A stretch of 64,000 nucleotides of DNA from Candidatus Bathyarchaeota archaeon (GTDB lineage: Archaea > Thermoproteota > Bathyarchaeia > Bathyarchaeales > Bathycorpusculaceae), in NCBI GenBank assembly GCA_026014585.1, contig JAOZIA010000024.1, forward strand, positions 186,001-250,000, read 5' to 3'. A program made the position numbers and the translations under genes. The notes under the pieces are model-generated. The model was not told where the DNA came from. It saw only the letters and a program-made list of their open reading frames with translations, and did no database searches. How positions within the stretch are numbered: the first letter of the stretch is position 1; each line of letters begins with the position of its first letter. Shown piece after piece: positions 34,362-59,283 of the stretch.

Positions 34362-34411
34362 GCGGATCATCATGGTCCGTAGGGATGTGGTCCCCCAGGG
34401 GACTGAACCGC
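34362..34411 (+). promoter_or_regulatory. hairpin-rich leader of the eL15-eL13 operon
   Basis: Upstream of eL15, GCGG (34362-34365) can pair with CCGC (34408-34411), enclosing the compact hairpin GTCCCC (34390-34395) / GGGGAC (34398-34403). A TATA-like TTTATTTT at 34326-34333 predicts a transcript starting near 34355, so this structure would form in the untranslated leader before AGGAG and the ATG at 34445. It may mediate ribosomal-protein feedback; that is inference. Confidence 0.45.
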
Positions 34412-34444
34412 AAACAAAAAACACATACAGGAGAAAAACCAGAA

Positions 34445-38522: not shown

Positions 38523-38601
38523 GGGGCCGTCGTCTAGCATGGTTCAGGATACATGCCTGGGGCGTATGCGATCCTGGGTTCAAATCCCAGCGGCCCCACC
38601 A
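38523..38601 (+). tRNA. tRNA-Pro (GGG anticodon)
   Basis: Folds as a full cloverleaf: acceptor GGGGCCG/CGGCCCC, D arm GTCT/GGAT with GG in the loop, anticodon stem CATGC/GTATG with loop CTGGGGC (anticodon GGG), T stem CTGGG/CCCAG with loop TTCAAAT, discriminator A at 38598 and an encoded CCA at 38599-38601. No intron is needed. Confidence 0.93.
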
Positions 38602-40619: not shown

Positions 40620-40937
40620 TTACCAGTGTCTTTCGGTTCTTATGTCGCTGCGAAGTTTTTCAAATTCTGCATCGGTAAACTCTTCTTTTAAAGTTATATT
40701 GTCCTCGTGTATGGGCCCCATTTTTTCAGCTGGCAAGGGTACAATCTTCTTTTCTAGAAAACCTGCCTTTTCACCGTAAATTTTTGCTACGTCCTCATTC
40801 ATCTTAACATCAACGACTTTTACCGACCAGTTATTGTCATCGACTTCAACATCTTCAACTTTGCCGATTTTTACGCCACGCCTAGCATAGACGTCAGTTC
40901 CTTTCAGTTTATCTAGACTAACCAATTTTTTCACCAT
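40620..40937 (-). CDS. PRC-barrel domain protein
   Basis: 105 aa with one PRC barrel: LDKLKGTDVYARRGVKIGKVEDVEVD then NNWSVKVVDVKMNED, IVPLPAEKMGPI and a helical tail (TDAEFEKLRSDIR). Such domains appear in RNA-processing and in archaeal CdvA proteins; stand-alone forms have unknown partners. Another PRC-barrel gene is at 54027-54347. No close neighbours on the strand. Confidence 0.82.
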   Translation of the reverse strand: MVKKLVSLDKLKGTDVYARRGVKIGKVEDVEVDDNNWSVKVVDVKMNEDVAKIYGEKAGFLEKKIVPLPAEKMGPIHEDNITLKEEFTDAEFEKLRSDIRTERHW

Positions 40938-41208: not shown

Positions 41209-41535
41209 GTGACTTGTATTTCTAAAACGTTAGCAAATATTGGCTTCATTTTAGCCTTAATAGGTAGCATAATTTTAATACTGCTTGGACTCGGAGCAAT
41301 ATTTGGAATCTTTCTGTTAATTTTTTATCCAGTGTACGCTCTGGGCTCATTCTTCTGGGGCATCGCTATGTTAATCGTTGGCATTTTGGCAGCGGCGGCT
41401 TCAAGGTTTGTTAGCAATGTTGGTGCAGCAATCTGGTTGATAATTCTCGCAGTCATCGCCAGCATCTTCGGAGCAGCTTTTGTGGCTTGGTTGATTATTA
41501 TAGGTGCAATACTTGGACTGCTATCACGACTATAA
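41209..41535 (+). CDS. small hydrophobic membrane protein
   Basis: 108 aa, mostly hydrophobic with three to four helices (IGFILALIGSIILILLGLGA, FFWGIAMLIVGILAAAASR, GAAIWLIILAVIASIFGAAF, LIIIGAILGLL). Start is odd: the strong ribosome site GGAGGTGA (41205-41212) overlaps the GTG at 41209, and the TTG at the proper distance is out of frame, so ATT at 41218 could be the real start. It precedes the ligand-gated channel gene by 40 bases on the same strand. Family unknown. Confidence 0.6.
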   Translation: MTCISKTLANIGFILALIGSIILILLGLGAIFGIFLLIFYPVYALGSFFWGIAMLIVGILAAAASRFVSNVGAAIWLIILAVIASIFGAAFVAWLIIIGAILGLLSRL

Positions 41536-41575: not shown

Positions 41576-42586
41576 ATGGGAGAAAAAGCATCACACAAAC
41601 TAAGTCATATACTAAAGGTGTTCATTGTTGTATTAGCAATCTTAACCATTCTTTCTCTTCAAGCAGTGCAGACCTGTGCCCAACAACCCGATCAAACTTC
41701 TATAAATGAGGTTGATTTTGAAAATAACACAGTGTACATAGGTATCTGGTTGAACAACATCTACAGGTATGAGTATACCGCAGGCGCCTACATTATCGAC
41801 TTTTACCTGTACTTTTTCTGGATAGACCAAAACATAGAAACAATCGAATGGTACCTGCTAAATGGCTACCCCGTTAATCCAGCAACCACTGTTCTGGTAA
41901 ACAGCAACCTAACAGGCGAAGTCAAATATGAGATATACCGTATTACTGCAGCTTGTAGCATAACCCCTGATGCAAAGGATTTTCCCTTTGACTCAATTGA
42001 GTTAGCCATTGTCATCGAAATACTTACCCATGGACAAAACATAGATTTTGTATGGCTAGAAAACGAGACAGGTGTCGACCCAAATTTTGTCAACGCAGGT
42101 TGGGTAACCACTAATATTGATTTGACCACATCAAATCATGTTTACCCTCTGGATGCTGAACTGCCTCGAGCTGAAATGGTCGTAAGCCAGCAAAGACAAC
42201 TAGTAATATCCAGTATTCAGGGGCTTATTCCGCCTCTAATTTTTGCGGTATTGTCTGCTTTTTCTTTTCTGTTCAACCTCAAAGATGCCTCCTCGGTGGG
42301 TTTACGGTTGGGGCTTAACACTTCGATGTTGGTCACAACTTTATTGTTTAATTTCACAATAGCTTCAAGTGTTCCGCCGTCTTCAACGATTACGCTCTAT
42401 GGCTTGTTTATCATTTCAGTTCTGATTTTTACTGTGATGAACCTTATCGTTACTATTGCAGGTTATGTGCAGTGGTTCTATTATAAAAATGAGCAACAAA
42501 CAAAGGCGACTAATCGCTGGGGGTTCCTTTTCTCATTAATAGTTCCTGTAGTGTTCTTTTTATTGCTATATTTTTTCAGAGGTTAA
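41576..42586 (+). CDS. Pentameric ligand-gated ion channel homologue (Cys-loop receptor-like)
   Basis: 336 aa with a signal peptide (about residues 1-35), a beta-sandwich external domain (37-203) and four membrane helices, as in GLIC/ELIC-type channels. The Cys-loop-equivalent has the diagnostic DFPFDSIELAIVIE at residues 135-148. M1 (206-233) has the conserved proline in LIPPLIF; M2 (241-264) reads VGLRLGLNTSMLVTTLLFNF and is followed by SSVPPSS; M3 spans about 271-297 and M4 315-334. The disulphide cysteines of animal receptors are absent, as in prokaryotic members. Ligand and ion selectivity are unknown. Archaeal members are few, so this is of interest. Confidence 0.82.
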   Translation: MGEKASHKLSHILKVFIVVLAILTILSLQAVQTCAQQPDQTSINEVDFENNTVYIGIWLNNIYRYEYTAGAYIIDFYLYFFWIDQNIETIEWYLLNGYPVNPATTVLVNSNLTGEVKYEIYRITAACSITPDAKDFPFDSIELAIVIEILTHGQNIDFVWLENETGVDPNFVNAGWVTTNIDLTTSNHVYPLDAELPRAEMVVSQQRQLVISSIQGLIPPLIFAVLSAFSFLFNLKDASSVGLRLGLNTSMLVTTLLFNFTIASSVPPSSTITLYGLFIISVLIFTVMNLIVTIAGYVQWFYYKNEQQTKATNRWGFLFSLIVPVVFFLLLYFFRG

Positions 42587-42692: not shown

Positions 42693-45044
42693 TTGTCCCT
42701 AAATGAGTATAAACCTGGAAGCCGATTTTCTGGCATTATCGGACGCACTGTTGACCAATCTAGCCCAGCGTGGCCCATGCCGCTAAGAGCCAAAGAAGGT
42801 GTACCAAATGTTCTTTTCATAATCTTAGATGACACAGGATTTGGACAACTTGGATGCTATGGAAGCCCCATATCAACCCCAAACATAGACAATTTAGCTG
42901 CAAACGGGCTGCTCTACAATAATATGCACACCACTGCCCTTTGTTCCCCAACACGTTCCTGTATCTTAACAGGTAGGAACCATCATTCAAACGGAATGGC
43001 GGGAATCACTGAAATATCCACGGGGTATCCTGACTACAACGGGTACATTCCCTTCGAGAATGGTTTTCTTTCCGAGATGCTTCTGCAGAAAGGCTACAGT
43101 ACCTATGCAGTTGGCAAATGGCACTTGACTCCCGCTAACGAAATTTCAGGTGCAGGCCCCTATGACCGCTGGCCCTTATCTAGAGGATTTGAAAGGTACT
43201 ACGGTTTTCTATGTGGTGACACTAACCAGTATTATCCTGATTTAACGTCTGACAATCATAGTGTGATGCCGCCTAAATCCCCCGAGGAAGGTTATCACTT
43301 AACTGAGGATATAGTGGATGTTGCTATCTCGTTTATTGCTGACTCAAAACAAGTGGCACCCAGAAAACCGTTCTTTTTGTACTTCTGTACTGGTGCAATG
43401 CATGCACCCCATCACGTTCCAAAAGAATGGGCTGACAAATACAAAGGACAATTCGATGATGGATGGGATGCATATCGCGAAAAAGTTTTCAAAAGACAAA
43501 AAGAACTTGGAATAATGCCAGCAAATGCCGAGCTTTCACGCCATGACCCCGATGTTAAACAATGGAGTGAATGTACTGATGAGGAAAAGAAAGTTTATTC
43601 CCGTATGATGGAGGTTTTTGCGGGTTTTCTTTCTCACACTGATTATCACATTGGCAGGCTTCTTAACTTCTTAAAAACCATTGGTGAATTTGATAATACA
43701 CTTATCATGGTTCTTTCTGATAACGGAGCAAGCGCTGAAGGGGGTCCACAAGGTTCAATCAATGAAAATCTTTTCTTCAATAATGTTCCCGAACTGCTTG
43801 AAGACAACATTAAAATGCTTGACAAAATAGGGGGACCCGAAACTTTTAACCATTACCCGTGGGGCTGGACGTGGGCTGGCAACACACCTTTCCGCCGCTG
43901 GAAACGAGAAACCTATCGTGGCGGCATAAGTGACCCCTTCATTGTGCATTGGTCCAACGGAATCAAAGCAAAAGGCGAAATCCGAACACAATACGCTCAT
44001 GCAATTGACTTGGTACCCACTGTTCTTGAAGCGTTAGACATAGAACCTCCTTCTATGATTCGGGGCGTTGCGCAGTCTCCTATTCAAGGCGTTAGTTTTG
44101 CTCACACTTTTGATAGCCCCAATGCTTCAAGTAAACATCATACGCAATATTTTGAGATGCTTGGTCACCGCTCAATCTACAAAAACGGCTGGCGAGCAGT
44201 TTGTCCATGGCCTGGACCCTCCTTTGCAGAAGCAGGAAAGCCATTTGGCATGCCCATCTCTGCAGATGAATTAACACAGTTGGATGCAAAAGGCTGGGAG
44301 CTCTACAACATCAATGAAGATGTAACGGAAAACAAAAACATCGCCGCAGACAATCGACCTCACTTAATAGAAATGATTGCACAGTGGTACGTCGAAGCGG
44401 GTAAATATAATGTATTACCTGTTGACGGACGCGGTGTACAGCGGTTTGCTGAGGAACGCCCCCAGATTGCGTTGGAACGCACAAGCTACACCTATTATCC
44501 TAACACCCAGCCGATGCCATCTGATGGCGCTGTAAAGGTTCTCAACAGGCCTCACACAATCATCATAGACGCAGAAATAAGCGAGGGCACAGACGGGTTA
44601 ATAGTGTCACATGGCGCCAGTGAAGGCGGTTATGCTCTGTATGTAAAAGATGGAAAACTGATTTTTGCCCACAACTACCTAGCCAAAGCTATTTACTATG
44701 TCAAATCAGAAAAAAATGTGCCCACAGGCAGACATAAACTGCGTTATACATTTGAAGTCACAGGCAAACCTGACCCGGCAAATGGAAAAGGCACTCCTGG
44801 ACGGGGAAAACTCTACTTTGACGACGAATTGGTTGGGCAAAACGATATACCTGTAACTATTCCTATAGCGATTGGGCTAAGCGGCAGATTCTCAATCGGA
44901 GCAGCTCCCAGTGCACCTATAACTCCCGACTATAATGGCGCCTTTAAGTTTAAAGGAAAAATCTACAGCGTAACTGTGGATGTTGGCGGAGAAAACATCG
45001 AAGATTCTAGCGCAAAAATGCGCAATGTAATGGCGAGACAATAA
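42693..45044 (+). CDS. Arylsulfatase-type sulfatase (large form)
   Basis: 783 aa hydrolase of sulfate esters. Metal-binding Asp pair at residues 46-47 (ILDDTGFG), formylglycine motif CSPTRSCILTGR with the modified Cys at residue 84, VGKWHLTP, MHAPHHVPKEW and VLSDNGASAEGG for the active-site bivalent metal, and a C-terminal beta-sandwich of about 200 residues. No signal peptide, so it seems cytoplasmic. TTG start with GGAGG upstream. It is followed by a BASS transporter (22-base gap) and a DUF1622 gene, probably one operon. Cys-type activation needs the maturase at 52227-53432. Confidence 0.92.
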   Translation: MSLNEYKPGSRFSGIIGRTVDQSSPAWPMPLRAKEGVPNVLFIILDDTGFGQLGCYGSPISTPNIDNLAANGLLYNNMHTTALCSPTRSCILTGRNHHSNGMAGITEISTGYPDYNGYIPFENGFLSEMLLQKGYSTYAVGKWHLTPANEISGAGPYDRWPLSRGFERYYGFLCGDTNQYYPDLTSDNHSVMPPKSPEEGYHLTEDIVDVAISFIADSKQVAPRKPFFLYFCTGAMHAPHHVPKEWADKYKGQFDDGWDAYREKVFKRQKELGIMPANAELSRHDPDVKQWSECTDEEKKVYSRMMEVFAGFLSHTDYHIGRLLNFLKTIGEFDNTLIMVLSDNGASAEGGPQGSINENLFFNNVPELLEDNIKMLDKIGGPETFNHYPWGWTWAGNTPFRRWKRETYRGGISDPFIVHWSNGIKAKGEIRTQYAHAIDLVPTVLEALDIEPPSMIRGVAQSPIQGVSFAHTFDSPNASSKHHTQYFEMLGHRSIYKNGWRAVCPWPGPSFAEAGKPFGMPISADELTQLDAKGWELYNINEDVTENKNIAADNRPHLIEMIAQWYVEAGKYNVLPVDGRGVQRFAEERPQIALERTSYTYYPNTQPMPSDGAVKVLNRPHTIIIDAEISEGTDGLIVSHGASEGGYALYVKDGKLIFAHNYLAKAIYYVKSEKNVPTGRHKLRYTFEVTGKPDPANGKGTPGRGKLYFDDELVGQNDIPVTIPIAIGLSGRFSIGAAPSAPITPDYNGAFKFKGKIYSVTVDVGGENIEDSSAKMRNVMARQ

Positions 45045-45066: not shown

Positions 45067-45927
45067 TTGTCAGAAGTAGGTTCAATCCTAATCCCTCTTT
45101 TTGCTTTAGTATTCGTAGTTGGCAGCATGCTGGCTATGGGGTTGAGTCTTACCATTCAAATGATAGCTAAGCCCTTAAAAAAAGTAAAAACTGTAGCTTT
45201 TGCTTTGTTCGCTAACTTTGTTGTCATGCCTCTAGTCACGATTGGTGTGCTCTCTGTTTTGCCCTTGCAAGAGGATATTCAAATTGCCTTCTATATTTTG
45301 GCTTTAGCTGCTGGAGCCCCGTTTCTTCCAAAACTGGCACAGTTCGCAAAAGCAGACATTGCATTTGCCGTTGGATTAATGACGCTTCTCATGGTGGCCA
45401 CAGTGATTATTTTACCAATATTTTTGCCCTTGATGCTTTCTGGCATAACAATAAACCCCTGGGATATCGTTCGTCCTTTGCTGTTTCTTTTGCTTCTCCC
45501 CCTTGGAATTGGTCTATTAGTCCGACAACGCTATGAAGAATTCGCCAAACACACAGCTAAACTTCTAAACTCGGTAACAACTGTTAGCTTACTGGCGCTG
45601 CTTTTCCTCTTCTTCATTGCATACTGGGACGCAATCATCAGCACATTTGGAACAGGCGCAATTGCCTTCTCCATCTTTTTTATTGCTTTTGCACTGGTTG
45701 CGGGTTACCTAATCAGCCCAAAAGAGACAGGCATAAGACGGGTATCCAGTTTGGGTACTGCTCAACGTAATATTTCAGTGGGCATTCTTGTTGCTGCAGT
45801 AAACTTTGCAGACCAACCTTTGGTGGGCGTCACGGTGTTAATTGTCTCCTTAGTCGGGCTAGTTTTCTTGATGGTTACCGCGGGAGAGTGGGGCAGAAAA
45901 AGTCAAAAAGAAAAACAATCAGGCTAA
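45067..45927 (+). CDS. Bile acid:sodium symporter (BASS) family transporter
   Basis: 286 aa, about nine hydrophobic helices: GSMLAMGLSLTIQMIAKPL at the N-terminus, AAGAPFLPKLAQFAKAD, and the C-terminal SSLGTAQRNISVGILVAAVNF, which fit the BASS/SBF superfamily of Na+-coupled organic anion importers. Position directly after a sulfatase suggests uptake of a sulfated or desulfated organic acid; this is inference. TTG start. Confidence 0.8.
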   Translation: MSEVGSILIPLFALVFVVGSMLAMGLSLTIQMIAKPLKKVKTVAFALFANFVVMPLVTIGVLSVLPLQEDIQIAFYILALAAGAPFLPKLAQFAKADIAFAVGLMTLLMVATVIILPIFLPLMLSGITINPWDIVRPLLFLLLLPLGIGLLVRQRYEEFAKHTAKLLNSVTTVSLLALLFLFFIAYWDAIISTFGTGAIAFSIFFIAFALVAGYLISPKETGIRRVSSLGTAQRNISVGILVAAVNFADQPLVGVTVLIVSLVGLVFLMVTAGEWGRKSQKEKQSG

Positions 45928-45948: not shown

Positions 45949-46320
45949 TTGAGTTTTCTAAGTACAGCAGAGGATGTTTTTTCAAACGTTGCTTCTTGGC
46001 TGAAGTTAGCCGCGGAGATTTCAAGCGTTGTCCTAATCGGGATAGGTTTAGTGGTTAGCATTTATTTTTTGATACAGCTACTTTTCTCAAAACAAAAAAA
46101 GAAGCAGTATCTCAAGCTGCGGTTGAATCTTGGACGTTTTCTTGTCTTAGCCTTGGAGCTTCAATTAGCCGCTGATATCATTGGAACCGCCATTGCTCCA
46201 AGTGTGGAACAGATTGGACAACTTGCCGCGATAGCTTTGATTAGAACATTTCTTAACTACTTCCTTAACCGAGAAATTCAAACGGAAGAAAAAGAGAGCA
46301 CTGAACAAGAAAGCCGCTAA
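45949..46320 (+). CDS. DUF1622-family membrane protein
   Basis: 123 aa with two or three helices: ISSVVLIGIGLVVSIYFLIQLL, LNLGRFLVLALELQLAADIIGTAI (family-typical) and QIGQLAAIALIRTFLNYFLNREI, with a charged C-tail. DUF1622 proteins are small membrane proteins of unknown role. TTG start at 45949, 21 bases after the transporter, so it completes the sulfatase-transporter operon. Confidence 0.8.
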   Translation: MSFLSTAEDVFSNVASWLKLAAEISSVVLIGIGLVVSIYFLIQLLFSKQKKKQYLKLRLNLGRFLVLALELQLAADIIGTAIAPSVEQIGQLAAIALIRTFLNYFLNREIQTEEKESTEQESR

Positions 46321-46821: not shown

Positions 46822-47490
46822 TTGATTGCAGCGTCTACAAACGCTTTTGCTGGTGCTCTTTTAGCTAGGCGTCCAGATCATTACAAGGGCTATACGCGTA
46901 TTGGAATTGTGCTTCTTGCCGTAATTGCAGGTATCGGCGGAGGGGTTGTTAGAGATATTATCTTAAATCAAGTGCCTGCGGCGTTTACCAATCCTCTCTA
47001 TGTAATTTTATGCACCATAATGGGGGTTTTGGCGCTGACAATATCTTATAGAGCGGGACGAAAAACCTACAGGAAACGGAGCGAGGAAGGAAATAATGTC
47101 AAGGAAGGTGCCCTAAATTATATGGCTACTTTTTCGTTACCTTGGTATGCGGCTGTAGGCGTAGATAAAGCTCTTACTGCTGGAGTACCCGTATTTCCCG
47201 CAATCATAATCGGAATCATTGGACCCACGACTGGTCGGTTTATCGTTGACCTCACGTCAGGAGTGACCCCTAAACATTTCGTCAAAGGAGAATTCTTCGT
47301 TACGACAGCAATCCTAACAAGTATCATTTATTACTTACTTTACGTCGCAGGATTATCTATTTGGCCAGCAACGTTAATTTCGGTGGCTTTTGGGTTCACT
47401 TTCCGTACAATTACATGGAGAAAAGGCTGGGAAGAAAAAGAACCCTGGGAACCAAAAAGCAGCTTGAAGGTTGCAAAACCTAAAGTTTAG
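46822..47490 (+). CDS. TRIC/UPF0126-type cation channel-like protein
   Basis: 222 aa with about seven hydrophobic helices in two repeats: GALLARRPDHYKGYTRIGIVLLAVIAGIGGGVVRDIIL in outline, then FPAIIIGIIGPTTGRFIVDLTSG. The GGGVVRD and matching second-repeat motif are typical of prokaryotic TRIC channels (K+/Na+ permeable trimers). The start is uncertain: TTG 46822 gives a first helix shorter than usual, and upstream in-frame codons to the stop at 46792 offer no standard start. Confidence 0.78.
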   Translation: MIAASTNAFAGALLARRPDHYKGYTRIGIVLLAVIAGIGGGVVRDIILNQVPAAFTNPLYVILCTIMGVLALTISYRAGRKTYRKRSEEGNNVKEGALNYMATFSLPWYAAVGVDKALTAGVPVFPAIIIGIIGPTTGRFIVDLTSGVTPKHFVKGEFFVTTAILTSIIYYLLYVAGLSIWPATLISVAFGFTFRTITWRKGWEEKEPWEPKSSLKVAKPKV

Positions 47491-47588
47491 AAGATTAGTA
47501 TACCTACATGATTACAACATACGCTTTTATTTGCTATAAACAAGTTTAAAGTTAAGAATTTTACCCCTGCCTCTTTTGCAGGTTACTG

Positions 47589-48896
47589 CTAAGTATTTTC
47601 ATGGGAACTAGAAGTATGTGCAGTTGGGGTTTTTTCCTGCAAACTTTGTGCTCTTTGCATCATGTATTTTTTCAAATATCGCGACAGCAAAAACCCCGTG
47701 ATTGAAGCTATAGTGATTGTGGGAATCAAATTAATCTGAGACATTAATGAGACCAGAAGAATAACTGAAATGGGCAAGGGAAAAAGCGCACTTGCAATGG
47801 CTGCCATGCCTGCGGTGACTGCAACTCCCTGCGGAATGAACGGTAACACTTGAGTAATAGCTAAACCCATTGTGCCTCCCATGAAAAGATATGGGAAAAC
47901 GGGTCCTCCTTTGAAGACTGTGTTAAAAGAAAGCGCTGTAACTATGGATTTACCGAACATAAGAAGCAATAAGAACCCAAAACTATAGGCACTGCTTTGG
48001 AATAGTATAGAAATTATTTCGTTTTGCCCTGAATAGAGCAACAGCGGAACAAATGAGCCAATAAATCCTACGGTTAAGCCGCCGATTAAGCCTCGTTTAA
48101 TTGGGCTACTTTCAAATCGTATAAACACATGTTTATGCAGTTTAACGTACAACCACTGATGGTACGCACCAAAAAATCCGCCGATTACACCGATTAAAAG
48201 AGCCCATAAGAGGTCAATGAATAAGGGTGAAGCGTATGGCGGGAAAATCAAAATTCCAGATATGGAAACGTTGAAAACATGATAGTAAACTAAGAAACCC
48301 ACAGTGGCTGAAATTAAACCGGGAACAAGCAGTTCTACATAGGGTATGCCTTGGATAAACAGGTATTCCATGGCTACGAAGGCACCTATAAGTGGGCTTC
48401 CAAAGAAGGAACCGAAACTACCTGCCACGCCACAGTAAGTCACAAAAATCACTGCATTAGTTCGGATTTTAAGTTTATCAGCAAGCAGCGTAGATGCGCC
48501 TCCGCCTAAATCTGCCAGCCCTCCCTCTGGACCAATTGAAGCACCTGCCCATAGAGAAAGAATACATTGTGTTATTATGCTTGGCAAGTGACGGTAATTG
48601 AGGCGTCCTTTGGTTTCAGAAAACTCCTTTTGGGTCGAGCCGAGATGGATGTGTTCTCCCGCATATTTGATTGTTAAGCCTATCAATACTCCGCCTATTG
48701 TCAGCAAGATTAGTGGCCAAAACAGGGCATAAGGTGTGCCTTCAAAGGGAGCTTCAAAAAATGATTCCCCCCAACCTGCTAAGAACAAGTAACCTATTGT
48801 TAGTAGGCTTGCTAGGGCACCTATGCCGGCGGCTAAAATCAATACTTTAAACAGATAGAGTCCTGAAGCAAAAATAGAATTTTTGTCACTTGCCAA
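47589..48896 (-). CDS. ClC-type chloride channel/transporter
   Basis: 435 aa with about ten hydrophobic helices. Selectivity motif GASIGPEGGLADLGGG corresponds to GxxxGxEGP in ClC proteins, with FGSFFGSPLIGAFVAMEY and the later GGPVFPYLFMGGTMG. The gating Glu (in PEGG) is kept. No C-terminal CBS pair. Whether it is a channel or a Cl-/H+ exchanger cannot be told. A 67-codon gene ends directly before its start. Confidence 0.88.
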   Translation of the reverse strand: MASDKNSIFASGLYLFKVLILAAGIGALASLLTIGYLFLAGWGESFFEAPFEGTPYALFWPLILLTIGGVLIGLTIKYAGEHIHLGSTQKEFSETKGRLNYRHLPSIITQCILSLWAGASIGPEGGLADLGGGASTLLADKLKIRTNAVIFVTYCGVAGSFGSFFGSPLIGAFVAMEYLFIQGIPYVELLVPGLISATVGFLVYYHVFNVSISGILIFPPYASPLFIDLLWALLIGVIGGFFGAYHQWLYVKLHKHVFIRFESSPIKRGLIGGLTVGFIGSFVPLLLYSGQNEIISILFQSSAYSFGFLLLLMFGKSIVTALSFNTVFKGGPVFPYLFMGGTMGLAITQVLPFIPQGVAVTAGMAAIASALFPLPISVILLVSLMSQINLIPTITIASITGFLLSRYLKKYMMQRAQSLQEKTPTAHTSSSHENT

Positions 48897-48897
48897 T

Positions 48898-49101
48898 TTA
48901 TGAACCCAAAAAATTAGTGATGCCTAAAAGTAGGAGCATTGTTTCTTGTTGATAAGACTTTGTTATTGTTAATGTGTAGTCATTATTTTCATCTGAACTT
49001 AAGTGAATGTGTTTATCTTGGATGGTTATCTTAGATGGGATGGTTTCCTTAAGGTTTAAAAACGCCTTTCTCTTCTTCTCTAAAAGGGAATATTTGCCCA
49101 T
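48898..49101 (-). CDS. hypothetical 67-aa protein upstream of ClC gene
   Basis: Small, charged N-terminus (MGKYSLLEKKRKAFLNL), a beta-like middle (SKITIQDKHIHLSSDENNDYTLTITKS) and a short hydrophobic end (ETMLLLLGITNFLG). No family is recognised. It ends one base before the ClC start on the same strand, so co-translation is plausible. Start lies 9 bases from the divergent channel gene frame. Confidence 0.45.
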   Translation of the reverse strand: MGKYSLLEKKRKAFLNLKETIPSKITIQDKHIHLSSDENNDYTLTITKSYQQETMLLLLGITNFLGS

Positions 49102-49133
49102 TTTCTGTCTTGTCTAATTTTTTGGCGGTAAGT

Positions 49134-49853
49134 ATGTCAAAGAATTTTTCGTGGGTTGAACTTCAAAGTTGGCTTCTTGGGTCACGATATTTAATTGTAA
49201 CCTTGTCAATAATGAGTTTTCTAATTATCCTCCCCTACACTTTTACCCAGTATGTTTATTTCGGACGCATCGTGCTTGCTTTTTGGCTTGCTCTTATATT
49301 AGTTGCTCTTAGCCTTTCAGTTTACCGTATAAAGATAGGCGGAAAGATTGGGTTACTATTAATAGCTGTAAATTTAGCTGCGACTATTCTTAATTTGAGT
49401 CTTGGGAGTTACCCGATTGCGGTGATAAACAGACTTCTGAATTTTATCACTTTTTCTTTTGTATCAATAATCATTTTTGTTGATTTAGCGACGGTTTATG
49501 TTGAAAAGCGCGGGAGATCCGATTACGTCTGGGGCGGCATCGCTATTTACCTATTAATCGGATTAACGTGGGGTGCCCTGTATAATTTAGTGGAATTGGT
49601 TACGCCGGGGTCATTTTTAGGTCCAGAATCTTTAGGCACCATAGAGTTTCCACTTTTTGTCTACTTTAGCTACTATGTGTTGACCACCGTTGGCGGTGTT
49701 TTAACTCCTATCACTTTGCAGGCTCAATCTTTGGTTATGATAGAACCAATAGTTGGAACTCTGTACGTTGCCATATTAGTTGCTCGACTTGTTAACCATA
49801 TATCTGCCAGAAAACAAGCAAAACCAGACAGTTCCGAGCAGTCTACAAAATAG
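49134..49853 (+). CDS. Ion-channel-like membrane protein with altered pore motif
   Basis: 239 aa, six hydrophobic helices in the arrangement of the two-TM-pore K+ channel family. The pore region reads FSYYVLTTVGGVLTPITLQA (about residues 178-197), where K+ channels have TTVGYGDITP; the YGD of the selectivity filter is replaced by GVL. The rest (SLVMIEPIVGTLYVAILVARLVNHI) matches related channels. It may be non-selective, a dead channel, or a different transporter. ATG 49134 with GGCGGT upstream is preferred over TTG 49110. Confidence 0.72.
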   Translation: MSKNFSWVELQSWLLGSRYLIVTLSIMSFLIILPYTFTQYVYFGRIVLAFWLALILVALSLSVYRIKIGGKIGLLLIAVNLAATILNLSLGSYPIAVINRLLNFITFSFVSIIIFVDLATVYVEKRGRSDYVWGGIAIYLLIGLTWGALYNLVELVTPGSFLGPESLGTIEFPLFVYFSYYVLTTVGGVLTPITLQAQSLVMIEPIVGTLYVAILVARLVNHISARKQAKPDSSEQSTK

Positions 49854-50673: not shown

Positions 50674-52158
50674 ATGAGTCAAAATAAGAAACCTAATATT
50701 CTTGTAATGTGGGGCGACGACATAGGCTGGTGGAACATCAGCTACAACAACAAAGGCCAAATGGGCTACCGCACACCAAACATCGACCGCATAGCAAATG
50801 AAGGAATCTCTTTCACCGATTATTACGGGCAACAAAGCTGCACCGCTGGTCGCGCCGCATTCATTACAGGCCAAAACCCTATTAGAACAGGCTTAACAAA
50901 AGTTGGCATGCCCGGGGCTAACTTAGGGTTACAATCTGAAGATCCAACAATCGCTGATTTGCTCAAACCCTTAGGCTATGCCACAGGTCAATTCGGCAAA
51001 AACCACTTAGGTGACAGAGATGAATTTTTGCCCACAAATCACGGGTTTGACGAGTTTTTCGGCAACTTGTATCATTTAAATGCAGAGGAAGAACCTGAAG
51101 ACCCCGATTATCCCAAAGACCCTGAATTTAGAAAGAAGTTTGGCCCTCGTGGGGTTATTCATAGTTTTGCTGGTGGCAAAATTGAAGATACAGGACCCTT
51201 AACCAAGAAAAGAATGGAGACAATTGACGATGAAATAACTGAAAATGCAATAAGGTATATTGAAGATAACGGCAAGTCGGGTAAACCGTTTTTTGTGTGG
51301 TATAACACTACAGCGATGCATTTCAGAACACATCCAGCCCCTAAGCATCTTGGAAAAAGTGGCAAAGGCGGCTTCTACAACGATGTAATGGTTGCTCACG
51401 ATGAAAACATCGGTAAACTCCTTAGCAAACTCGACGAACTCGGTATCGCAGATGACACTATCGTTATGTATTCTACGGATAATGGCCCACACTATAACGC
51501 TTGGCCAGATGGTGCAATAACGCCATTTAGGAGCGAGAAAAACACGAATTGGGAGGGTGCTTGGCGGGTTCCAACATTTGCTCGCTGGCCTAACAAATTC
51601 CCGGCAGGTCTGGTTCTTAATGGTATTGTTTCTCATCAAGATTGGCTTCCGACGCTTTTAGCAGCTGCAGGCGAGCCGAACATAAAAGAAAAACTATTGC
51701 AAGGGCATACTGCAGGTGTAAAGAATTTCAAAGTACACCTCGACGGGCACAACATGCTGCCTTACTTTATGGGGCAAGAAAAAGACAGCCCACGCCAATC
51801 CTTCTTCTACATAAATGATGACGGGCAACTTGTAGCTCTTAGGTACAATGATTGGAAGCTTGTTTTCTTGGAACAGAGAGCTAAAACAATGGCGTTGTGG
51901 GGTGAACCTTTCGTATCCCTGCGTATTCCAAAAATGTTTAATTTACGCAGAGACCCATTCGAACGCGCTGACCTTAACTCGAACACATATTGGGACTGGC
52001 TTATTGAACACGCATTCTTACTAATTCCTGCCCAAGCTTTTGTTGCAGAACAAATCCAATCTTTAAAAGAGTTCCCACCACGTCAAAAGCCTTCCTCATT
52101 CAATCTTGATCGCGTGATGGAACACCTACAAGATGCAGCAGGTGCTGGCCAACATTAA
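50674..52158 (+). CDS. Arylsulfatase, second copy
   Basis: 494 aa, alkaline-phosphatase-fold sulfatase. MWGDDIGWWN holds the metal Asp pair (residues 15-16); the formylglycine motif is CTAGRAAFITGQ with Cys at residue 56 in the CxAxR form; GKNHLGDRDEF, TAMHFRTHP and YSTDNGPHYNAWP give the other active-site residues. No signal peptide. Followed 68 bases downstream by an anaerobic sulfatase maturase, which would convert Cys 56 to formylglycine without oxygen. Distant from the 783-aa enzyme, so substrates likely differ. Confidence 0.93.
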   Translation: MSQNKKPNILVMWGDDIGWWNISYNNKGQMGYRTPNIDRIANEGISFTDYYGQQSCTAGRAAFITGQNPIRTGLTKVGMPGANLGLQSEDPTIADLLKPLGYATGQFGKNHLGDRDEFLPTNHGFDEFFGNLYHLNAEEEPEDPDYPKDPEFRKKFGPRGVIHSFAGGKIEDTGPLTKKRMETIDDEITENAIRYIEDNGKSGKPFFVWYNTTAMHFRTHPAPKHLGKSGKGGFYNDVMVAHDENIGKLLSKLDELGIADDTIVMYSTDNGPHYNAWPDGAITPFRSEKNTNWEGAWRVPTFARWPNKFPAGLVLNGIVSHQDWLPTLLAAAGEPNIKEKLLQGHTAGVKNFKVHLDGHNMLPYFMGQEKDSPRQSFFYINDDGQLVALRYNDWKLVFLEQRAKTMALWGEPFVSLRIPKMFNLRRDPFERADLNSNTYWDWLIEHAFLLIPAQAFVAEQIQSLKEFPPRQKPSSFNLDRVMEHLQDAAGAGQH

Positions 52159-52226: not shown

Positions 52227-53432
52227 GTGAACAAAAAAGAGCAGAAAATTCAAGCTTTTCATGTAATGGCTAAACCTACAGGCTCCAGATGTAATTTGAA
52301 TTGTGCCTATTGTTTTTACTTAAAAAAGAAACAGCTCTATCCGAAGAGTAATTTTCAAATGTCAGAGGAAATTATGGAAAAGTACATCCGACAAACCCTT
52401 CAAGCCCACAACTCACCCAGCGTAACCATTGCTTGGCAGGGTGGTGAACCAACGCTGATGGGTTTAGACTTTTTCCGCCACGCCACTAATGTGATAAAAC
52501 AAAATGTTCGTCCAGGCGTAACAGTTGAGAATACTTTGCAAACCAACGGTGTTTTGATTGATGATGAATGGTGCAAGTTTTTGCATGACAACCATTTTTT
52601 GGTAGGTTTAAGCAGTGATGGCCCAAAACAAATGCATGATGCTTATCGAAAAGACAAAACAGGGCGTTCAGTTTTTGATAAGGTGATACACAGTGCTCAT
52701 CTTATGCAGAGATATAATGTTGAATTTAACATTCTTTGCACAGTAAATGCCGTGAACAGTCAGCATCCCCTTGAAGTTTACCGGTTTTTCCGTGATGAAC
52801 TAAAAACGCCTTATCTGCAGTTTATCCCCATTGTTGAGCGAGATAACGAAACAGGAAATCAAGAAGGCAACTGTATCACTGAACGTTCAGTGAATCCAAA
52901 GCAGTATGGAAAGTTTTTGATTGAAGTCTTTGATGAATGGGTTACTAATGATGTGGGTAAGATGTTTGTTTTGTTTTTCGATGGAGTATTAGCTTCCTAT
53001 GTTAGGGGGTACTCGTCTCTTTGCATATTGAGCCCTAAATGTGGGGAAGGTGTTGTTCTTGAACATAACGGCGATGTTTATAGTTGCGACCATTTTGTGG
53101 AACCAAACTACTTTTTAGGAAACATTTCAAACACTTCCATAGCCGACCTTGTTTTTAGTCAAAGGCAAAGAGATTTTGGGGATTATAAATGGAAAACTCT
53201 GCCTCGTTACTGCCGAGAATGCGAGTTCTTGTTTACTTGTTATGGTGAATGCCCAAAAAATCGGGTTCTTAAAACGCCTGACGGCGAAGAAAACTTAAAT
53301 TGGCTATGTGAAGGCTTGAAAGCATTTTTTGTCCATACAAAAGAGCCCATGCAGATGATGGCAAACTTGTTGCTTAGAGGTCGACCTGCTTCAGATATAA
53401 TGCAAATCTGGCATGAAAAAACAGTTCAATAA
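52227..53432 (+). CDS. Anaerobic sulfatase-maturating enzyme (radical SAM, SPASM)
   Basis: 401 aa. Radical SAM cluster motif CNLNCAYCF with cysteines at residues 22, 26 and 29, followed by WQGGEPTLMGLDFF, LQTNGVLIDDEW and a C-terminal SPASM domain (CGEGVVLEHNGDVYSCDHFV, CRECEFLFTCYGECPKNR) that binds two more 4Fe-4S clusters. This is the anSME architecture that oxidises a Cys or Ser in sulfatases to formylglycine. GTG start. It sits behind the 494-aa sulfatase and may serve the 783-aa one as well. Oxygen-sensitive, so the cell is an anaerobe. Confidence 0.92.
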   Translation: MNKKEQKIQAFHVMAKPTGSRCNLNCAYCFYLKKKQLYPKSNFQMSEEIMEKYIRQTLQAHNSPSVTIAWQGGEPTLMGLDFFRHATNVIKQNVRPGVTVENTLQTNGVLIDDEWCKFLHDNHFLVGLSSDGPKQMHDAYRKDKTGRSVFDKVIHSAHLMQRYNVEFNILCTVNAVNSQHPLEVYRFFRDELKTPYLQFIPIVERDNETGNQEGNCITERSVNPKQYGKFLIEVFDEWVTNDVGKMFVLFFDGVLASYVRGYSSLCILSPKCGEGVVLEHNGDVYSCDHFVEPNYFLGNISNTSIADLVFSQRQRDFGDYKWKTLPRYCRECEFLFTCYGECPKNRVLKTPDGEENLNWLCEGLKAFFVHTKEPMQMMANLLLRGRPASDIMQIWHEKTVQ

Positions 53433-54815: not shown

Positions 54816-55636
<821 letters not shown>

Positions 55637-55637
<1 letters not shown>

Positions 55638-56566
55638 TGGTGCTGTCTATGAAGCAAGCAACTCTCACGTACACTCAATACAAGAGTCCCCAAAAGAAGA
55701 GCTACGCTGAAATAATTCAGGAACATCCCTGCTACGACTCTAAAGCACACTTCAAATTTGGCAGAGTTCACCTTCCAGTCGCGGCAGGATGCAACATAGG
55801 ATGCAACTATTGCGTCCGAAAATACGACTGCGCCAACGAAAACCGACCGGGAGTCACAAGTAAACTCTTAGATGCAAAAGAAGCTATAGAAAAAGTTCGC
55901 TGTACAGTGAAGCATGACCCGCGGCTTCGTGTTGTAGGCATTTCTGGACCGGGCGACCCGTTGACCAGTGACACAACATTTGAAGTGTTTGAACAGGTTC
56001 ACAATGAGTTTCCAGATTTAACGCTTTGTCTTTCAACCAACGGCTTATTGTTACCGCAAAAATTAAGCCAAATCAAGAAAGTAGGCGTTAACGCACTTAC
56101 AATCACCATAAACGCAGTAGACCCAGATGTGGGTTCAAAAATCTACTCGTTTGTTAACTATCAAGGCAAAACCCTGCACGACAAAGAAGCCTTCCAAGTG
56201 CTAAGCAAAAACCAGCTAGATGGCCTTCGAGAAGCTGCCGCTGCAGACATAGCCGTAAAAGTCAACACAGTATACATTCCAACCATAAATGCGGAACACA
56301 TCCCCGAAATCGCCAAAACCGTCCGCAGCCTAAAAGCTTACATAATGAACATCATACCCCTAATTCCACAGGGCAAATTTGCACACATACCCGCACCCAC
56401 CCAGCAAGACATCCACACCATCCGACAAGCCTGCCAAGACACCTTGATTCAATTCCACAATTGCGTGCAATGCCGAGCTGACGCTACAGGTGTACCTGGA
56501 GAAGAAGCCTGCGGTAGCCGCTTGCCCAATTTTGAACAACATCTAAAAACAAAGGAGACACCATAG
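55637..56566 (+). CDS. NifB-like radical SAM cofactor maturase
   Basis: 309 aa stand-alone NifB (no NifX tail), as in methanogens. HPCYDSKAHFKFGRVHLPVA, CNIGCNYC (Cys 52, 56, 59), YDCANENRPGVTS, ISGPGDPL, LCLSTNGLLLP, TITINAVDP and the C-terminal NCVQCRADATG (Cys 276, 279) are NifB markers. NifB fuses two 4Fe-4S clusters and inserts carbide to give NifB-co, the core of all nitrogenase cofactors. Its place between nifH- and nifD-like genes, overlapping the first by one base and abutting the second, ties it to this enzyme. Confidence 0.93.
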
Positions 56567-57949
56567 ATGCCGCTAATTTTACCTGACTGCGACAAAACTG
56601 TACCTGAACGCCAAAAGCACGTCTACATAAAAGACTCCAGCGACCCCTTCATGATTCCAGCCTGCAACATTGCCACTGTACCTGGTGACTTAACTGAGCG
56701 TGGATGCACTTATGCTGGCTGCCGAGGAGTTGTTGGTGGTCCCGTTAAGGATGTGATTCAGCTTCAGCATGGTCCTATCGGTTGTGCTTATTATCCTTGG
56801 GATGCTCGACCCCACGTTGCCACAGGCACCAACTTCCACTTAGCTAACGTGTTCTCTACGGACTTACGCGAATCCAACATTGTCTTTGGCGGCGAAAAAA
56901 AACTCTACGATTCAATCATAGAATCCAACAAAGCTTTCCCTGATGCACAAGGCGTATTCGTATATGCCACCTGCGTTGCAGGCTTGATTGGCGATGACAT
57001 CGAAGCCATAGCAAAGCGTGCAAGCAAAGCCATAGGCAAACCTGTAGTAGCTTTCAACTGTCCCGGTTTTCGTGGCGTAAGCCAAAGCTTGGGTCATCAC
57101 ATAGGCAACGAGATGCTCTTTAACAAAATCGTCGGCACAGAGGAACTCAAAGAGAAAACGCCTTACGACATAAACCTGATTGGTGAGTACAACATTCGCG
57201 GTGATGACTGGCTGATTTTGTCCCTGCTTGAATCCGTGGGGTTACGGGTGGTCTGCACTTTCACTGGTGACTCGTCTATCCATGACATTGCCAAGATGCA
57301 TGCTGCAAAACTCAACGTAATTCGCTGTGCACGTAGCGCCAAATACATAGCTGAGATGATGAAAGAAAAATACGGCACGCCCCATATGGAAGTTGACCTC
57401 TACGGTATCGAACAAACCGCTGAGGATTTGCGTCAAATCGCCAAGTTTTTTGGGTTAGAAGCCAAAGCCGAGGAAGTCATTGCTAAGGAGACTGCTGAAA
57501 TCAAAGAGGAGATGGATTTTTACCGTGAAAAGTTCAAGGGTAAAACTGTCATGATTTATCAGGGTGGTCCGCGTAGTTGGCACTGGCCAAGCTTTATGGC
57601 GGAGTTGGGCATGGAGGTCAAAGTGGTCGCTACAACCTTTGGACATGAGGATGACTACGAAAAAATCGTTAAGCGAGTCAAAGACGGCACTGTGGTTATC
57701 GATAACCCAAACGCACCCGAGTTCGAAGAGATGATATTTAAGTACAAGCCTGACCTGTTCATCGCGGGGCAAAAAGAGAAGTACCTCAGTTACAAGTACG
57801 GTGTTCCCTTCCTTAATGGTCACACATACGAAAGCAAAGGCGGCTACATGGCATTTAAGGGCACAGTGCGTTTTGCCCGTGACATCTATCAGGCGCTCTA
57901 TTCGCCAGCGTGGCGGTTCATACGAAAAACCGAGGAGGAACACCAGTAA
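56567..57949 (+). CDS. NifD-like nitrogenase alpha subunit with conserved cofactor ligands
   Basis: 460 aa. P-cluster cysteines Cys47 (RGCTYAG), Cys73 (GPIGCAY) and Cys136 (ATCVAGLIGDD) match NifD Cys62, 88 and 154. FRGVSQSLGHHIGNE keeps Gln173 and His177 (NifD Gln191, His195). Cys254 (VIRCARSAKYI) and His419 (NGHTYESKGGY) match the cofactor ligands Cys275 and His442, and GGPRSWH keeps the Arg359 equivalent. Such a set is expected of nitrogenases and cofactor-bearing relatives, not of BchN or CfbD. The segment YYPWDARPH differs from the NifD Arg96 area. Starts directly after the nifB stop and overlaps nifK (TAATG). Confidence 0.93.
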   Translation: MPLILPDCDKTVPERQKHVYIKDSSDPFMIPACNIATVPGDLTERGCTYAGCRGVVGGPVKDVIQLQHGPIGCAYYPWDARPHVATGTNFHLANVFSTDLRESNIVFGGEKKLYDSIIESNKAFPDAQGVFVYATCVAGLIGDDIEAIAKRASKAIGKPVVAFNCPGFRGVSQSLGHHIGNEMLFNKIVGTEELKEKTPYDINLIGEYNIRGDDWLILSLLESVGLRVVCTFTGDSSIHDIAKMHAAKLNVIRCARSAKYIAEMMKEKYGTPHMEVDLYGIEQTAEDLRQIAKFFGLEAKAEEVIAKETAEIKEEMDFYREKFKGKTVMIYQGGPRSWHWPSFMAELGMEVKVVATTFGHEDDYEKIVKRVKDGTVVIDNPNAPEFEEMIFKYKPDLFIAGQKEKYLSYKYGVPFLNGHTYESKGGYMAFKGTVRFARDIYQALYSPAWRFIRKTEEEHQ

Positions 57950-59283
57950 TGGTGGTTATCACAAAAACCCGCAGCGTCGCCATCAACGCTCCCAAAATGT
58001 GCCAGCCAATCGGCGCAATCTGGGCAACCCTTGGTGTACATGGTAGCGTGCCCCTAGTGCATGGTTCACAGGGATGCTCCACGTACCCGCGTAACTTGAT
58101 GGGGCGGCATTTCCGTGAACCAATCGAAGTCGCCATCACTTCACTTCACGAAAAAGCAACAATCTTCGGTGGTGCATCTAACCTTAAGCAGGCACTTGCC
58201 AACATCATCATACGCCAGCAGCCCGAGCTCATAACAGTCATAACTACTTGCCTTAGCGAAACCACAGGCGATGACATCCACGGCATCGTTAAAGCTTTCC
58301 GCGCAGAAAAACCTGAACTTGCCAAGCAATCAAAAATCGTTACAGTCAACACCCCCAGCTACGTTGGAACCCATGTGGTTGGCTATGATAATGCAGTAAA
58401 AGCAATGGTGTCTCAGCTCTCAACAGGTAAGGACCGCCCAAGTGACAAAGTCAACGTAATCCCTGGTATAATAAACCCTGGTGACGTAATGGAGCTCAAA
58501 CACATATTCTCCGAAATGGGCGTACCTGCCATATACATAACAGACATCTCACAAACCCTCAACGCGCCCCTGCGTCTGCCAAAGCCCCATTTCCCACGAG
58601 GAGGAACAACAGTGGAGGAAATCGCAGACTGCGCCAACTCGCTGGGTACGATAGCGGTTTGCAAGCATCAAGGGCAGGGTGCAGTTAATTATCTTAAGGA
58701 TAAGTTTAGTGTACCTGGGCAGTTGTGTGAGACGCCAATTGGTGTAGAAGCAACGGAGGATTTCCTTGAACACATCACCCGCTTTACAGGCAAGAAAGTG
58801 CCTGAATCATTGCTTGACGAGCGTGACCTGCTGGTAGATGCAATGGTGGACTCCAGCCACATCACATTTGGCACTAAAGTCGCTATTTTCGGTGATCCTG
58901 ACGTAGCCTTTGCTCTGGCACGATTCACCTATGAACTGGGTATGCAGCCAATTCACGTGATGACAACTCTGGAAACCCCCAAGTTTGCGCCTGATATGAA
59001 AGCGTTAGCAACCGATTACGGCACAGGCGAAGACCAAAACAACCTCATTGTCGGCGGCGACCTCTACGAACTACACCAGAAAATCAAAGAAAAACCCGTT
59101 GACCTCTTAATCGGTGACTACAAAGGCAAATACATCGCCAAAGAAGAACACATCCCACTGGTCCGCGTCGGATTCCCTCAAGCTGACCGCTTCGGTTACC
59201 AACGAAGAGCAATGCTTGGTTTCCGCGGCTCACTGCAACTACTGGACACACTGGTGAACACTGTAATGGATACCAAAGATTAA
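57949..59283 (+). CDS. NifK-like nitrogenase beta subunit
   Basis: 444 aa from ATG 57949. P-cluster cysteines Cys18 (MCQPIGA), Cys43 (HGSQGC) and Cys101 (TTCLSETTGDD) match NifK Cys70, 95 and 153. RHFREPIEVAITSLHEKATIFGG, TPSYVGTHVVGYDNAVKAM in outline and the C-terminal GFPQADRFGYQRRAMLGFRG follow NifK throughout. The N-terminal extension of Azotobacter NifK is missing, as in AnfK/VnfK and archaeal forms. It would form the alpha2beta2 core with the NifD-like protein. A new ATG of the same transcript: TAATG with nifD. Confidence 0.93.
   Translation: MVVITKTRSVAINAPKMCQPIGAIWATLGVHGSVPLVHGSQGCSTYPRNLMGRHFREPIEVAITSLHEKATIFGGASNLKQALANIIIRQQPELITVITTCLSETTGDDIHGIVKAFRAEKPELAKQSKIVTVNTPSYVGTHVVGYDNAVKAMVSQLSTGKDRPSDKVNVIPGIINPGDVMELKHIFSEMGVPAIYITDISQTLNAPLRLPKPHFPRGGTTVEEIADCANSLGTIAVCKHQGQGAVNYLKDKFSVPGQLCETPIGVEATEDFLEHITRFTGKKVPESLLDERDLLVDAMVDSSHITFGTKVAIFGDPDVAFALARFTYELGMQPIHVMTTLETPKFAPDMKALATDYGTGEDQNNLIVGGDLYELHQKIKEKPVDLLIGDYKGKYIAKEEHIPLVRVGFPQADRFGYQRRAMLGFRGSLQLLDTLVNTVMDTKD

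Follow-up and report, generated by a model that had tools for sequence, protein, structure and literature searches.

Organisation of the locus

The window analysed here is a stretch of 64,000 nucleotides from a Candidatus Bathyarchaeota archaeon, and the gene that concerns us lies at 41576..42586 on its forward strand. This open reading frame starts with ATG, is present in one copy in the host genome and encodes a protein of 336 residues which, through NCBIfam TIGR00860, profile searches against the PDB and signature residues, we assign as a subunit of a Cys-less ('Pro-loop') pentameric ligand-gated ion channel (pLGIC), referred to below as type A. In the same orientation there follow a 783-residue arylsulfatase (sulfA, 42693..45044; PF00884, 2.9e-67), a transporter of the SBF (bile acid:sodium symporter) family (45067..45927; PF01758, 7.9e-14) and a DUF1622 membrane protein (45949..46320; PF07784, 8.1e-28), the successive gaps downstream of the channel gene being 106, 22 and 21 bases. 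SulfA has no hydrophobic N-terminal segment and carries the sequence CSPTR at what we take to be the position of the formylglycine motif. The left edge of the cluster is marked by a gene for a PRC-barrel protein on the reverse strand (40620..40937; PF05239, 2.3e-6), which is conserved in two further genomes with a type A channel (G007 and G087). Approximately 10 kb from the channel cluster, the forward strand also encodes a second sulfatase of 494 residues (50674..52158; PF00884, 6.5e-50) and an anaerobic sulfatase-maturating radical SAM enzyme (anSME, 52227..53432; TIGR03942, 477.9 bits against a cut-off of 349.45), and the window thus holds two of the three sulfatases of the host genome as well as its only maturase over the cut-off. 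The intervening stretch (46822-49853) is itself rich in channel genes, encoding a PF03458 membrane protein, a ClC-family channel and an Ion_trans_2-like protein, and is not conserved at the G007 and G087 loci.

A small hydrophobic protein of 108 residues that belongs to no Pfam family is encoded on the forward strand at 41209..41535, 40 bases 5' of the channel gene, and the initial annotation had raised it as a possible partner of the channel. In G007 and G087, too, it is encoded close to the cluster. Its relatives nevertheless occur in 14 of the 256 genomes searched from the class (Bathyarchaeia), including a 71% identical copy in a genome with no detected pLGIC (G001), and the copies in a further type A genome (G016) are unlinked to the channel. 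The protein is therefore not specific to the cluster, and its reading as a dedicated partner is weakened. The neighbours that tell more, namely the arylsulfatase, the SBF symporter, DUF1622, the second sulfatase and the maturase, were left unmentioned by the initial annotation.

Five genomes hold a type A channel, and the pLGIC, sulfA and DUF1622 genes are clustered in three of them (the host, G000, together with G007 and G087), with the SBF gene in two of these three. In G007 the sulfatase adjoins the channel and the unit recurs without SBF, while the arrangement in G087, which belongs to another genus, is pLGIC, a DUF6325 gene on the opposite strand, sulfatase, SBF and DUF1622. Proteins with DUF202, DUF6325/DUF1269, SHOCT and PRC-barrel domains are also recurrent around the cluster. 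The channel gene of G016 has no cluster neighbour; in G056 the next downstream gene is not a sulfatase, and the contig ends inside the channel gene. Among 25 neighbourhoods of other pLGICs, including the type B channels described below, no protein of the sulfatase cluster was found, apart from two weak matches to an uncharacterised protein (x49974). After the G007 cluster lies a short fragment resembling the N-terminus of the maturase (L033:12489-12785), which is probably a relic; an intact maturase is encoded on another contig of that genome.

Family membership and signature residues

The similarity of the protein to known channels is apparent even when its single sequence is used as the query. 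Searching the PDB with phmmer, the best match was 6fvq, a Cys-loop ligand-gated channel (1.1e-7), ahead of a GLIC-GlyR chimera (2.4e-7) and then GABA-A, nicotinic and glycine receptors. A profile built from the five type A orthologs (A1) gave a best E-value of 3.7e-12, again to the GLIC-GlyR chimera, with GLIC itself matching at values down to 6.1e-10; 93 distinct sequences were matched at E<=0.001, and the best 60 of these 93 are GLIC or GLIC chimeras throughout. Scores against the general family models are more modest. TIGR00860 matches with an E-value of 2.3e-17 at 62.9 bits, below its cut-off of 280.2, and both pLGIC domains of Pfam are found in the expected order with E-values of 0.0015 (PF02931, 18.4 bits, cut-off 26) and 0.0017 (PF02932, 19.1 bits, cut-off 28.1). 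PF02932 used alone against the six-frame translation of the host genome gave no match, nor did it in 14 controls. Given the profile matches to pLGICs, these sub-cut-off scores mark the protein as a divergent member of the family rather than a non-member. The open reading frame is not a chance one, because it has orthologs in four other genomes (61-68% identity in three, 42% in the fourth) and pN/pS among the four closest type A orthologs is low, at 0.24-0.32.

A survey of the family lists seven near-universal signature residues (PMC4795631, Table 1 and section 7), and all seven are present in the window protein. The [F/Y]PxD motif of the β6-β7 'Pro loop', as defined in the survey, reads F136 P137 F138 D139 (41981..41992, forward strand); Pro and Asp are kept in all five type A proteins and F136 is Tyr in one. 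The β9 aromatic residue is W176 in 5/5, and the pre-M1 arginine, R207 (42194..42196, forward strand), is likewise invariant and stands 12 residues ahead of the M1 proline, as in GLIC. In known pLGICs this arginine is the salt-bridge partner of the Pro-loop aspartate. For the M1 kink there are two adjacent prolines, P219 (four of five, Thr in G087) and P220 (all five), and the proline of the M2-M3 loop, P267, is invariant, lying within a V266-PPSS stretch directly after M2. The initial annotation had picked out the FPFD motif, a proline in M1 and VPPSS, and these are indeed found at residues 136-139, 219/220 and 266-270. It had also proposed a signal peptide, which agrees with a Kyte-Doolittle peak at residues 12-30 (41609..41665, forward strand), a hydrophobic N-terminal segment that is probably such a peptide. 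The cysteine pair of strict Cys-loop receptors is absent, since C34 and C127 are the only cysteines of the whole protein and form no flanking pair.

Pore and predicted structure

Alignment of the region from pre-M2 through M2 to VPPSS (residues 242-270; 42299..42385, forward strand) places G at -2', L at -1', R at 0', G at 2', S at 6', V at 9' and L at 13'. A basic residue at 0', found in 79% of the survey sequences, is present as R244 and in 5/5 type A proteins. At 9', where the survey has Leu in 75% and does not treat it as strictly defining, the window protein has V253, and the five type A proteins have Val in four cases and Ile in one. Between -5' and 24' no acidic residue is present in the window protein, and R0' is the only basic one. 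The acidic ring at -1'/-2' that is a trait of cation-selective channels is missing, with G at -2' and L or M at -1' in all five type A proteins; these L-R or M-R pairs also differ from the A[R/K] motif at -1'/0' of anion-selective animal receptors. In the G056 copy, positions 18'-20' of the alignment are all acidic, with three such residues. According to the text consulted of PMC9897478, all known cation-selective pLGICs show acidic rings at their cytoplasmic mouth, and the consulted sections of the 2016 survey state that M2 motifs at this site do not predict selectivity in prokaryotes (PMC4795631). Because the mouth of the pore is free of acidic residues and carries R0', strong cation selectivity of the known type appears unlikely for the window protein, and anion permeation is possible.

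An AlphaFold model made from two sequences is of low confidence (pLDDT 46.6) and shows strands followed by four C-terminal helices (214-233, 241-262, 268-303 and 306-334). The M2, M3 and M4 segments of the initial annotation are partly borne out, in that the four helices come from this low-confidence model, while the hydropathy peaks of the protein fall at M1, M3 and M4. The external β-sandwich that had been proposed is supported: the ectodomain of the same low-confidence model (residues 50-207) matches ELIC with a Z-score of 10.1 and an rmsd of 3.4 Å over 145 residues, and the best 50 matches listed by the structure search with it are pLGICs only. Foldseek with the whole model likewise listed only pLGICs among its best 50, with TM-scores of only about 0.3. 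An external β-sandwich combined with four transmembrane helices is also consistent with the profile alignments, which span both domains, the poor model being a caveat to this architecture. Taken together, the profile matches with GLIC-type structures at their head, the full set of signature residues and the ectodomain fold uphold the initial identification of a Cys-loop receptor-type channel, and we regard it as virtually certain that the window protein is a genuine member of the pLGIC family.

Distribution and relation to known channels

The initial annotation took channels of this kind to be known from only a few archaea, with examples in Methanosarcina, and this view of their rarity does not hold. 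The A1 profile matches 36 of 256 genomes from the class and 34 of 398 genomes drawn evenly from the phylum. The Methanosarcina pLGICs were already known from 2004 (PMC549065, in the portion consulted), and the 2016 survey counts, in its consulted sections, 24 archaeal sequences, including Thaumarchaeota and Euryarchaeota (PMC4795631). Type A itself is confined to five of the 256 class genomes: the host, G016 (64% identity to the window protein), G087 (68%), G007 (61%) and G056 (42%). The other matches in the class are fragments (G023, G112 and G140) or share about 25% identity and represent the Thaumarchaeota-type archaeal channels (type B), which occur commonly in Bathyarchaeia as well as in further families of the phylum; both types are found in G056, with one channel of each. 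The tree, built from 53 sequences after eight fragment ORFs from L030, L085, L107 and L139 had been dropped, shows type A as a single clade with 100/100 support on a long stem, outside the type B clade; the deep branching order of this tree is not settled and long-branch warnings apply to it.

Type A and type B share a full-length architecture, the lack of the Cys-loop cysteines and a basic 0' residue, and their profiles align with an hhalign probability of 99.0 (E 6.6e-18). They differ in their identity of only about 25%, in their separate clades and in the absence of a sulfatase cluster near the type B loci checked. In type A, moreover, the M1-M2 loop is longer by three residues, -1' is L or M where type B mostly has Q, and the Pro loop has Asp rather than Glu, Glu being found in the [F/Y]PxD motif of all 30 type B rows; this substitution is put at 3% in the consulted sections of the 2016 survey (PMC4795631). 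Type A would accordingly be a distinct subfamily within a known kind of channel, the novelty lying in the subtype and its sulfatase context, and as a clade without an acidic ring at the pore mouth it adds to the sequence diversity of archaeal channels.

Of the characterised channels, the proton-gated GLIC of Gloeobacter heads the profile matches, and its Pro loop, β9 Trp, pre-M1 Arg, M1 Pro and M2-M3 Pro align with those of the window protein, but the latter has G-L without an acid at -2'/-1' and the tree gives no settled deep relation between them. Ahead of M2, the GLIC row taken from 3ei0 shows A in place of the E of other GLIC entries, and it was therefore left out of statements on pore charge. 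The channel 6fvq, which shares the FNFTI stretch and R0' with the window protein, was taken as sTeLIC-type on the grounds that 9ex6, named sTeLIC, is listed under the same sequence as its sister entry 6fl9. ELIC and DeCLIC resemble the window protein through their ectodomains, which match the low-confidence model at Z of about 10. However, the window protein has no added N-terminal domain of the DeCLIC kind, and it lacks an acidic ring at the cytoplasmic pore mouth. Animal Cys-loop receptors (GABA-A, glycine, nicotinic) belong to the same superfamily and give significant sequence matches, but the window protein has neither their cysteine pair nor their long M3-M4 loop.

Neither the type A nor the type B profile found a relative among viral contigs, and phage records likewise gave none. 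Matches in the plasmid collection were distant (about 24-27% identity) and limited to Azospirillum and Streptomyces, the type A search returning seven records, all from Azospirillum. A viral or plasmid origin of the channel was rejected on these grounds.

Co-occurrence with sulfatase and maturase genes

With membership set at E<=1e-60, the sulfA family is present in seven of the 256 class genomes, namely the five type A holders together with G058 and G219 (71% and 77% complete, respectively), and the probability of all five type A holders falling within these seven is 2.4e-9 (hypergeometric). An anSME over the cut-off is found in 17/256 genomes of the class. Within the 90-genome family of the host its holders are the five type A genomes and no others, G001 having a sub-cut-off relative, and this identity has a naive p of 2.3e-8, or 7.2e-6 when stratified by genus (32, 7 and 4 genomes in three genera), a stratification that ignores kinship inside the genera. 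The three type A holders in genus g1 may be one clade, a part of the species tree that the p-values disregard, and the pattern as a whole is drawn from five type A genomes. Simple linkage does not explain it, because four of the five have their anSME gene at an unlinked site and G016 has a separate contig each for channel, sulfatase and maturase. The other members of the cluster are less regular companions, SBF being found in 4/256 genomes (three of the five with type A, and G058) and DUF1622 being strongly found only in G000, G007 and G087 of the 90 in the family.

Outside Bathyarchaeia, sulfA matches proteins of cyanobacterial plasmids along its full length at 72% identity and those of haloarchaeal plasmids at 56%, and 106 records of the plasmid collection hold relatives. 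In two haloarchaeal plasmid records the sulfatase is followed by an SBF gene whose product is 43-46% identical to that of the window, with a formylglycine-generating enzyme beside the pair. No pLGIC was found at the six sulfA plasmid loci inspected. As the pair recurs in haloarchaeal plasmids and these six loci are without a channel, the sulfatase-SBF pair is an older unit and the channel an addition made in Bathyarchaeia.

Proposed role and alternatives

On balance, we lean towards a reading in which the protein is a homomeric, Cys-less pLGIC of the archaeal cell membrane, ligand-gated and tied to the use of organic sulfate. Five subunits would assemble with the β-sandwich outside and M2 lining the pore, and an external small solute or ion would bind the ectodomain, opening the channel via the coupling zone of Pro loop, pre-M1 and M2-M3 loop. 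The SBF symporter would import an organic sulfate ester, from which the cytosolic Cys-type sulfatase, activated by anSME, would free sulfate, and the channel may either report the external solute or pass ions that balance the imported charge. The observations beneath this proposal are family membership, purifying selection, the separate clade, the clustering and the co-occurrence. Against it, most sulfA relatives occur without a pLGIC, as the 106 plasmid records illustrate, the G016 channel stands without a cluster neighbour and SBF is missing from two of the five type A genomes. In a more specific version, which we consider unlikely, type A would be dedicated to organic-sulfate metabolism: sulfate, or a sulfated solute outside the cell, would gate a pore permeable to anions, and the channel, together with SBF, arylsulfatase and anSME, would either detect sulfate esters or discharge left-over sulfate and charge. 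If true, it would provide an archaeal pLGIC with an assigned pathway.

The channel could instead be real but a passenger, functionally unconnected to sulfate esters, within an island of genes for sulfatase, transport and small membrane proteins that was gained by lateral transfer. The high identity of sulfA to cyanobacterial plasmid proteins suggests lateral transfer and mobility, the 38-56 kb stretch of the window is relatively AT-rich (GC 0.38-0.45), and presence in genus g1 is patchy, all of which fit a passenger. We nevertheless hold this to be somewhat doubtful, since the gene set is kept even where it is unlinked (in G016, and for anSME in four of five genomes) and no insertion scar was seen. 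A tRNA-Pro (GGG) gene with encoded CCA stands at the left edge of the AT-rich stretch (38523-38601) and was considered as an integration site, but was set aside because no second copy of its 3' end occurs within the window. A function as a general chemosensory receptor for low-molecular-weight solutes, unrelated to sulfatases, would follow the proposal by Tasneem et al. of chemotactic receptors, based in the portion consulted on PBP/Cache fusions and neighbourhoods (PMC549065); Pfam searches of 15 ORFs between 38.7 and 54.4 kb, other stretches being partly scanned, found no PBP, Cache or chemotaxis domain, and we judge this improbable. The Val or Ile at 9' in place of the usual Leu and the sub-cut-off Pfam scores might even suggest a degenerate, non-conducting protein of pLGIC fold which only binds its ligand, but the retention of all seven signature residues, among them the coupling pair of Pro-loop Asp and pre-M1 Arg, and the low pN/pS make that very improbable.

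The tie to organic-sulfate use remains our preferred reading, and its interest lies in what is known of such channels in microbes. The consulted sections of the 2016 survey report no biological role for any pLGIC in unicellular organisms and do not mention sulfatases (PMC4795631). Sulfatases are equally unmentioned in the consulted portion of the 2004 paper, where pLGIC neighbourhoods feature PBP-II, Cache and a Na+/H+ symporter (PMC549065). Our literature search, with subscription journals and preprints mostly outside its scope, found no paper joining a prokaryotic pLGIC or DUF1622 with a sulfatase, and none on a ligand-gated ion channel of Bathyarchaeota. The genomic company of type A is thus a testable clue to the function of a microbial pLGIC, and that this company includes a sulfatase and its activating enzyme, even where the maturase is unlinked, points to a definite pathway and narrows the candidate ligands to a few.

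Additional observations

Two genomes of family f29 (G373 and G301; L134:6743-8707, L130 and L143), possibly Nitrosopumilaceae, with what we take to be small genomes like those of ammonia oxidisers, hold two pLGICs each, encoded side by side in G373. One of the pair has P-R at -1'/0' and the other E-R and no pre-M1 Arg, and the two resemble a pairing of an anion-type with a cation-type channel. Split pLGIC genes were seen in G573 (a split of about 1.3 kb) and, with apparent frameshifts, in G023 and G112 (L139:5025-7408, L107:2567-3570 and L085), and these may reflect gene decay, insertion or assembly error. Elsewhere in the window, nifH, nifB and two nitrogenase component 1 subunits are encoded at 54819-59283 in the order nifHBDK, an arrangement reported in 2024 for Bathy-6 genomes in the text consulted of PMC11697101. 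At 34362-34414, the window of this Bathyarchaeia genome also contains a match to the Rfam eL15-Euryarchaeota ribosomal leader (41.2 bits).
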